From positions 1-38,668 of the forward strand of contig JALUWF010000283.1 in the NCBI GenBank assembly GCA_027019785.1: DNA of 38,668 nt, written 5' to 3'. Position 1 is the stretch's first letter. Each line of letters begins with the position of its first letter. The translations under genes and the position numbers were made by a program. The notes beneath the pieces are model-generated. The model was not told the origin of the DNA and ran no database searches. It worked only from the letters and a program-made list of their open reading frames with translations. The DNA is from Mariprofundus sp. (GTDB lineage: Bacteria; Pseudomonadota; Zetaproteobacteria; Mariprofundales; Mariprofundaceae). Shown one piece after another: positions 25,731 through 29,666 of this stretch.

Positions 25731-26105
25731 TTAAACTCCTTTTGAGTGATCATCTTTGGTTATGAGGTTGTCAGCAGCGCCATCTTTCGACGGGCATTTT
25801 GGCCCACACTTGTTCGGGGAGTCTGCGCAACAAGCGCCCACAAGGTTATCCGTGAGTTCCAGCAAATCGGAAAATACAGCCGAATAGATAATGAATTGGC
25901 CTTTCCGTCGCGAAGTGACCAATCCAACATGAACAAGCTTTTGGAGATGGAATGTCAAAGCATTGGGAGCGGCATTCACTTGTTTGCCCAGTTGGCCTGC
26001 AGCAAGACCCGCCGGACCAACGCGAACGAGGAAGCGTATGATGGACAGCCGTATCGGATGCCCGAGTACCGCAAGCTTTTTGGCAACAAGGTCGTCTGTA
26101 ATCAT
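25731..26105 (-). CDS. ArsR/SmtB-family repressor, paralog of 1878-2279
   Basis: MITDDLVAKKLAVLGHPIRLSIIRFLVRVGPAGLAAGQLGKQVNAAPNALTFHLQKLVHVGLVTSRRKGQFIIYSAVFSDLLELTDNLVGACCADSPNKCGPKCP. Confidence 0.9.
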   Translation of the reverse strand: MITDDLVAKKLAVLGHPIRLSIIRFLVRVGPAGLAAGQLGKQVNAAPNALTFHLQKLVHVGLVTSRRKGQFIIYSAVFSDLLELTDNLVGACCADSPNKCGPKCPSKDGAADNLITKDDHSKGV

Positions 26106-26111
26106 GCGGGT

Positions 26112-26138
26112 AATATTACAATGATTCATGTAATATTG
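26112..26138 (-). promoter_or_regulatory. Candidate ArsR operator (second copy)
   Basis: Reverse strand CAATATTACATGAATCATTGTAATATT, 6 nt before the ATG; includes a direct repeat GTAATATT(A/G)CAAT at 20-bp spacing. Confidence 0.6.
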
Positions 26139-26145
26139 CAATATG

Positions 26146-26586
26146 CTATCTGTGGTCGCTTCTTTTCTCTTCTCGACTGAAGTCAATCAGGCAGCAGCGA
26201 CCCGATGGGTTTCTGGATTCACAGGCGCATAGTTTGTCTTTCGTCTGCTTTACCACAAAGGCTTTCATGGCTTGTGCCGTGCCATCAGTCAGGGCGGCAC
26301 GGTATACTGATTCGGAAATATCGAAGCAGTGACAGAGCATGGCTTGCTGACCGGACTGAAATGCCCGCAAGCGGGTTTTGGAAATGCTACAGGATTCTGA
26401 AAAATAACCGACATTACATTCAGAGTTAGCACAAAATGCGTAACCTCCTTCATCTATAGCTTGGTTTTCCGGAAACAGAACCTGATGCAAGATGGTTTGC
26501 CTGCTGACTGGAAAACAGTTCTGCCCGCATGCCGGACAGCTCATTCGAGTCTTTTTCGTAGTCGTGTTACAGCAAGCACAAGACAT
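26146..26586 (-). CDS. CopZ N-terminal-like zinc/[2Fe-2S]-binding protein
   Basis: MSCACCNTTTKKTRMSCPACGQNCFPVSRQTILHQV...CANSECNVGYF...LCHCFDISE...KDKLCACESRNPSGRCCLID (Bfd-like [2Fe-2S] motif). Confidence 0.8.
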   Translation of the reverse strand: MSCACCNTTTKKTRMSCPACGQNCFPVSRQTILHQVLFPENQAIDEGGYAFCANSECNVGYFSESCSISKTRLRAFQSGQQAMLCHCFDISESVYRAALTDGTAQAMKAFVVKQTKDKLCACESRNPSGRCCLIDFSREEKRSDHR

Positions 26587-26599
26587 GGTTGCTCCTTCT

Positions 26600-28281
<1,682 letters not shown>

Positions 28282-28330: not shown

Positions 28331-28422
28331 ACCACAGAGGGCACAGAGAGCACAGAGGAGGTCAAAATCTATATGCTTTGTTTTCTCTGCTTTTCCTCTG
28401 TGCTCTCTGTGTACTCTGTGGT
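28331..28422. repeat. Imperfect inverted repeat from CACAGAG units
   Basis: ACCACAGAGGGCACAGAGAGCACAGAGGA ... TCCTCTGTGCTCTCTGTGTACTCTGTGGT, 29-nt arms, between merF and the small ORF. Confidence 0.85.
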
Positions 28423-28485
28423 GAAAATATTTTGATTTTATGATTTTCATTCTTGTATATTGTGCGCGGAATTTTTCGTAAGCGA

Positions 28486-28599
28486 CTAATGACAAGACGG
28501 GCAATGTGTCACCAGCCAGATGATGCCGGACACTGCTGCAATGCCGATCATGACGTTCAACACAACTGAGCTGCTACTCTTCTTTTCGGGTTCGCTCAC
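28486..28599 (-). CDS. 37-aa single-TM peptide ending CPSCH, in the mer operon
   Basis: GTG start overlapping merP TGA (GTGA): (M/V)SEPEKKSSSSVVLNVMIGIAAVSGIIWLVTHCPSCH*. Not in the supplied ORF track because it is short. Confidence 0.65.
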   Translation of the reverse strand: MSEPEKKSSSSVVLNVMIGIAAVSGIIWLVTHCPSCH

Positions 28600-28892
28600 T
28601 GTTTTGTTCCTGTAATGGTTGCCGGATACCCTAATTTTGTAATGGCCTGAGCAATCGCTTGAGGCGACTGTTCGCTATCTTCAAACGTAACGGTCGCCAA
28701 CGCTGTATCGAGATCAACAGCAGCAGAGTGGACGCCTTTCATCTGCAAGGCGCGATGGCGAACACTGATTGGACAGGTACCACAGGTCATGCCAGAAACA
28801 TGCATTCTGACAGTTTTCTCCTGTGCAAAACCAGTTTGCGCGTAGGCTACAGTCATGCAGAGACAGCCAGTCATCAATAACATTTTTCGCAT
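28596..28892 (-). CDS. merP: Periplasmic mercury-binding protein MerP
   Basis: Signal peptide; VRMHVSGMTCGTCPISVRHRALQMKGV. Confidence 0.93.
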   Translation of the reverse strand: MRKMLLMTGCLCMTVAYAQTGFAQEKTVRMHVSGMTCGTCPISVRHRALQMKGVHSAAVDLDTALATVTFEDSEQSPQAIAQAITKLGYPATITGTKQ

Positions 28893-28904: not shown

Positions 28905-29240
28905 TTATTTAATCAGATAGGGTAACAGTGATGGTGAAATCAGCAGCAGAATTGCAACGCCGCCCAGCATCCAGAGCAACACAGGTTTCTTCGGCGGACA
29001 ACCATTGGCCATGCACACTTTTCTGCCCTGCCAGTGCCTCCAGCCAGCCCAGCCAATCAGGCCAAGCGTGATAGCGGCGAAAATGGGGCGATACGGCTCC
29101 ATGGCGATAAAGGCTGAAGCTGAACCCAATCCCAGCATCACCACAATCAATGGCCCGATACAGCAGGCGGAGGCCAGGCCTCCAGCTATAATTGCACCCA
29201 CCAATGGCGTGTTTTCTTTTTTTGTTTCGGTATTGTTCAA
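28905..29240 (-). CDS. merT: Mercury transporter MerT
   Basis: GAIIAGGLASACCIGPLIVVMLGLGSASAFIAMEPYRPIFAAITLGLIGWAGWRHW. Confidence 0.94.
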   Translation of the reverse strand: MNNTETKKENTPLVGAIIAGGLASACCIGPLIVVMLGLGSASAFIAMEPYRPIFAAITLGLIGWAGWRHWQGRKVCMANGCPPKKPVLLWMLGGVAILLLISPSLLPYLIK

Positions 29241-29241
29241 G

Positions 29242-29628
29242 TTACTCCTCCAACGATTTCAAAATAGGACATGGGTCAGTATCGGACGACTCTTCACACT
29301 GCTCGGCTAAACTCAGTAAAATTTGACGCATCTGGGATAGTTTACGAATCCGCACCTCGATCTCATTGGCTTTGGCTTCGGCAACAGCCCGCACTTCAGC
29401 GCAATTGCAGTCATCAGTACGAAGGGCAAGCAGCTGGCCTGTTTCCTCCAGCGTAAAACCCAGTTCCTTGGTCTGCACAATAAACTTCAACCGCGACACA
29501 TCTTCTGCTGAATACTGACGATAACCGGACGCCGTACGCCTGGCCTCAGGAATTAGACCCCGCTGTTCATAATAACGAATGGTATCAATGGATACGCCGC
29601 TCTGTTTTGATAACTCGCCAATCTTCAT
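29242..29628 (-). CDS. merR: MerR, Hg(II)-responsive regulator
   Basis: MKIGELSKQSGVSIDTIRYYEQRGLIPEARRTASGYRQY; CNCAEV and QCEESSDTDPCP cysteines (C-x8-C); first gene of the mer operon. Confidence 0.93.
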   Translation of the reverse strand: MKIGELSKQSGVSIDTIRYYEQRGLIPEARRTASGYRQYSAEDVSRLKFIVQTKELGFTLEETGQLLALRTDDCNCAEVRAVAEAKANEIEVRIRKLSQMRQILLSLAEQCEESSDTDPCPILKSLEE

Positions 29629-29635
29629 GGGCGAA

Positions 29636-29666
29636 TGATAAAGCATGGAGTATACTCAAGGGTCAA
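29636..29666 (-). promoter_or_regulatory. MerR-type promoter/operator (19-bp spacer) of the mer operon
   Basis: Reverse strand TTGACC-CTTGAGTATACTCCATGCT-TTATCA with dyad GAGTATACTC. Confidence 0.8.

Follow-up and report, generated by a model that had tools for sequence, protein, structure and literature searches.

The window analysed here, a 38,668-nucleotide contig from a 2.87-Mb genome closely related to Mariprofundus and other Mariprofundaceae of the class Zetaproteobacteria, carries a mer operon on its minus strand. A MerR-type regulator (29242–29646) is the operon's first gene and is followed by merT (28905–29240; 111 residues, TTG start; PF02411, E = 2.9e-14), merP (28596–28892; 98 residues, with the motif GMTCGTC; HMA domain PF00403, E = 2.9e-14), the short gene discussed below, merF (28048–28281; 77 residues; PF11431 and NF033565, 98.4 bits) and merA (26600–28045; TIGR02053, 557 bits). 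MerT, MerF and MerA match their own Pfam or NCBIfam models; MerP and MerR are assigned from HMA and MerR family Pfam matches, together with scores below the cut-off for TIGR02052 (72.8 bits against 92.55) and TIGR02051 (131 bits against 150.85), respectively. The 481-residue MerA lacks the HMA-type N-terminal domain, its alignment to PRK13748 beginning at profile position 86. Its N-terminus (28004–28045) reads MSDCC, with MSDCC, MSECC or MRDCC in relatives, and MerF has a CC pair near its end; these short cysteine tails suggest a use in transfer from MerF to MerA. Directly 3' of merA, on the same strand, are a CopZ N-terminal-like iron-sulfur metallochaperone (26146–26631; NF047645, 123.5 bits) and then an ArsR-type regulator (25731–26186). 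A 155-residue protein, also encoded on the minus strand of the window, matches no family.

A MerR-type promoter, TTGACC-N20-TATCAT with a dyad (29635–29666, minus strand), lies just 5' of an ATG internal to merR at 29628, and it is this position that makes the internal ATG probably the true start of the gene. At least 16 relatives have a similar arrangement, TTGACY-N20-TA...T with a dyad, upstream of a merR that leads the operon. Since the window MerR falls below the NCBI MerR cut-off and models of ZntR and CueR score nearly as high, it is from the structural genes that we infer Hg(II) to be the inducer.

Between merP and merF, at 28486–28599 of the minus strand, is a reading frame for a 37-residue protein with a single hydrophobic helix and a CPSCH tail, MSEPEKKSSSSVVLNVMIGIAAVSGIIWLVTHCPSCH, referred to here as X. 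The preliminary description of this DNA had proposed exactly this product, and its sequence, coordinates and strand are all correct. The start codon of X, GTG (28599–28597), overlaps the TGA stop of merP (28598–28596) so that the two share the letters GTGA (28596–28599), as had also been proposed; within the open frame of 62 codons, no other standard start codon precedes the X helix. At the other end, the codons for HCPSCH and the stop occupy 28486–28506, at the C-terminal end of the helix. Most homologues have ATG at the position equivalent to the GTG, and others have GTG. Where merP is present in relatives the overlap is kept as GTGA, ATGA or TAATG and, being conserved through different codon solutions, it argues for translational coupling of the two genes.

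The conservation of X in related mer operons had been named beforehand as one of the points on which the proposal would stand or fall, and it is borne out. Homologues are present in 21 of 78 Zetaproteobacteria genomes and in one metagenome-assembled genome (MAG) labelled Gammaproteobacteria. Across 399 Pseudomonadota genomes a profile search found X in 21, all from the family of the window, and among the 85,488 species genomes scanned there were nine X loci, all in Zetaproteobacteria save for that one MAG (L036), which has the full set of merR, merT, merP, X, merF and merA and may reflect transfer or misbinning. Beyond the class, a tblastn search of plasmids with the window peptide gave no match, a scan of IMG/VR found no relative, and X-like reading frames were absent from six other Pseudomonadota MerF loci and from four plasmid mer operons, in three of which the gap from merP to merF is 2–10 nt. 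The single plasmid match of a second family member (E = 6) is taken as chance; it is in a Pseudomonas plasmid, and no mer genes are annotated nearby.

The 23 alignable homologues occupy the same operon position as X, and their differences bear the mark of a translated sequence. In 15 members the final 26 codons give a pN/pS of 0.34 in frame; read in the two shifted frames, the same DNA gives 1.16 and 1.57. The first, second and third codon positions differ 744, 375 and 1335 times, respectively. These figures are descriptive since pairs of related sequences are not independent, and they point to purifying selection on the reading frame. The shortness of X and its lack of an annotated family might otherwise have suggested a chance, untranslated reading frame, but the conserved frame with its signature of purifying selection, the conserved start/stop overlap and the retention of X through a deletion of merP, described below, lead us to reject that explanation, whose probability is now negligible. 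On this sequence evidence X is a real gene and its homologues a protein family.

Except for one decayed copy, X sits in mer operons in all the layouts examined. The order merT-merP-X-merF is seen at twelve loci, including those of the window's genome and of the MAG L036; at one of these (G048) merT is partial at a contig end, and another (G022) is spread over two contigs, each cut at one end. In a further genome (G059) merT-merP-X is followed by the end of the contig. In Mariprofundus micogutta ET2 merT, merP and X are intact and merF is internally deleted, with about 23 codons left. Seven genomes (G006, G007, G015, G053, G060, G102 and G110) have merT-X-merF with no merP, and one (G057), in which the contig starts inside merR, has merR-X-merF with neither merT nor merP. 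The placing of X between MerP and MerF, given in the preliminary description, is therefore true of the window but does not hold generally.

The clearest view of how merP may be lost comes from G007, whose MerT is 96% identical to that of the window. Here a deletion scar, TAAGGAGAATTACATGAACAAAACAGTGAGCGAACC, fuses the ribosome site and ATG of merP in frame with the last part of merP and the beginning of X, and because of this fusion X could be translated from the merP start. Since X is retained in operons without merP, in merR-X-merF and beside a broken merF, we conclude from the layouts that it is not an appendage of MerP. Equally, it is dispensable, since two operons (G051 and G062) have merP without X, and about eight loci have merT-merF with neither X nor merP, one of them with a degraded merF (G035) and another being a second locus of M. 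micogutta ET2.

Two further sequences resemble X. The decayed copy, in G048, has an in-frame TGA and is outside any mer gene that could be detected. G018 has a second merT, 70% identical, and after it an X-like sequence (L157, 1560–1685) that loses its frame in a run rich in A; as it is at a contig end, the break may be decay or an assembly error.

The members of the family are 34–54 residues long (n = 23). In support of the helix and terminal CxxC foreseen in the preliminary description, each has a single hydrophobic stretch, with an 18-residue mean hydropathy of 2.2–3.0, that ends at or just before CxxC[H/Y], the usual tail being CPTCH or CPSCH. The two cysteines are invariant (23/23), as is the initiator methionine, and Trp28 and His37 are nearly so. 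As CxxCH is the attachment motif of haem c and c-type cytochromes are abundant in Zetaproteobacteria, a miniature cytochrome might be considered. However, the last residue of the motif, His in 21 of the 23, is Tyr in two (CPTCY and CSSCY), there is no second ligand, the motif is at the very end of the chain and the context is mer; the haem reading is rejected as very improbable. Lys and Arg are more numerous before the helix than after it in 21 of 23 members, with a tie in two, which weakly favours a topology with the N-terminus inside and the C-terminus outside. One member (G102; L058 / L079) has an additional CHCKGGC ahead of the helix.

Neither Pfam nor NCBIfam offers a convincing family match for the 23 members. 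Weak matches to CrgA, Vma12, DUF2976 and conjugation proteins are taken as matches between hydrophobic helices, as is the best result of a profile search of the PDB (E = 0.38). Stannin (PF09049), an animal organotin binder, resembles X in its one helix and in its cysteines at the membrane interface but has CxC rather than CxxC and comes from unrelated organisms; just one of the 23 members matches it weakly (E = 0.0013), probably through hydrophobic composition, and we reject membership.

Among mer proteins, the closest functional parallel appears to be the CPCH site of MerE (PF05052), the 78-residue broad mercury transporter of Tn21 type. This too is a small membrane protein, in which a hydrophilic N-terminus and a hydrophobic stretch lead to VLTCPCH, to be set beside LVTHCPSCH in X. 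Nevertheless, MerE has two helices and a CxC in the middle of the first, whereas X has one helix and a CxxC at the end of the chain. Homology was not found: hhalign of X with MerE gave 25% probability across 7 columns, PF05052 is absent from the matches of the 23 members at E <= 1, and the PF05052 model, with which a true MerE scores 162.7 bits, finds nothing in the 78 genomes of the class. MerP shares with X a CxxC site for Hg(II), expected on the periplasmic side, but is a soluble HMA-fold protein with a signal peptide rather than a membrane tail; X, at 34–54 residues, has no HMA match and no GMTCxxC HMA domain preceded by a signal peptide. MerF and MerT are likewise membrane proteins of the same operon with cysteine pairs, but have two and three helices, respectively, with CC within helix 1, compared with the single helix of X. 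No relation to either could be detected by profile comparison, and X does not match PF11431 or NF033565. By analogy, X may act like a membrane-tethered MerP or like the first half of MerE, and by the tests made it belongs to neither family. It is an undescribed small accessory family within the known mer system, a search of open-licence papers having found no description of an X-like protein.

Two features that would be looked for in a mer accessory handling Hg(II) are present in X: it is encoded in a mer operon under a MerR-type promoter, and it combines a predicted membrane helix with an invariant CxxC. In the known transport system MerP delivers Hg(II) to two paired cysteines in the first helix of MerT, from where it goes on to MerA, and in MerE the His adjacent to the cysteine pair is critical in Hg(II) transport (PMC5715351). 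X has an invariant thiol pair and a near-invariant His at a membrane interface and, with the MerE parallel in view, is proposed to bind Hg(II). In our preferred model, for which we see the chances as evenly balanced, X would be an accessory subunit whose hydrophilic N-terminus stays in the cytoplasm and whose single helix crosses the inner membrane. The CxxCH tail would then bind Hg(II) at the periplasmic face and hand it to MerT or MerF, alongside or in place of MerP, so that X would serve as a minimal membrane-tethered counterpart of MerP, either a backup or a replacement. Some part in handling Hg(II) at the membrane, where a relay was first suggested, is the most economical reading of a one-helix protein with a terminal CxxC(H) conserved in mer operons; the more specific passage from MerP to MerF is not supported in that form, given that X persists without merP, without merT and beside a deleted merF. 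Counting against the preferred model, some mer operons do without X, the charge signal that orients the tail is weak, and a CxxC so near the end of the helix could become oxidised in the periplasm.

The opposite orientation would place the CxxCH tail in the cytoplasm, where it would take Hg(II) from MerT or MerF for a MerA that lacks the usual metal-binding N-terminal domain. Translocation of short N-terminal tails is possible, and in several X N-termini acidic residues equal basic ones in number. Yet Lys and Arg counts point the other way, and MerA and MerF already have CC tails of their own, so that we regard the reversed arrangement as unlikely.

It is also improbable, in our view, that X is a small subunit with a structural or regulatory task, stabilising or gating MerT or MerF, its thiols sensing rather than carrying Hg(II). 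Many single-helix small proteins of bacteria are such subunits, and X does accompany varied transporter sets (MerT with MerF, MerF alone, or MerT with a broken MerF). However, with a variable helix and cysteines as the sole invariant residues besides the initiator Met, selection seems directed at the chemistry of the tail. The likeness of CPTC and CPSC to redox-active CxxC motifs raises the further idea of a thiol-disulfide helper that keeps MerP or MerT cysteines in the reduced state. This we consider quite improbable since X is retained without MerP, is far below the size of a thioredoxin fold and belongs to an operon without an electron source.

Going beyond the preferred model, X may be a lineage-restricted and possibly the smallest Hg(II) carrier, able to replace MerP as the periplasm-facing receptor and having done so repeatedly in Zetaproteobacteria. 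We put this forward tentatively, as a somewhat doubtful extension: replacement on more than one occasion is read from the operon layouts, with one clear deletion scar and a MerT tree too poorly resolved to count the events. Because some operons have X but no merP, its role can be tested directly. If X does carry Hg(II), it would be a metal relay of 37 residues, amenable to NMR and peptide chemistry. As a mer component overlooked owing to its length, X is also a reminder that conserved parts may still hide as short reading frames in long-studied operons.

Two smaller observations concern the operon. At its 5' end (29622–29666) the -10 element is just 6 nt ahead of the conserved internal ATG of merR, so that the merR mRNA is probably leaderless or nearly so. 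Downstream, the window has a spacer of 204 bp between X and merF; in most relatives merF follows X after about 10–25 nt. The spacer contains an inverted repeat, ACCACAGAGGGCACAGAGAGCACAGAGGA ... TCCTCTGTGCTCTCTGTGTACTCTGTGGT (28331–28426), that looks like a small repeat element that entered the operon, and a comparable repeat, ACCACAGAGGACGCAAAGG, is found 3' of X in G006.
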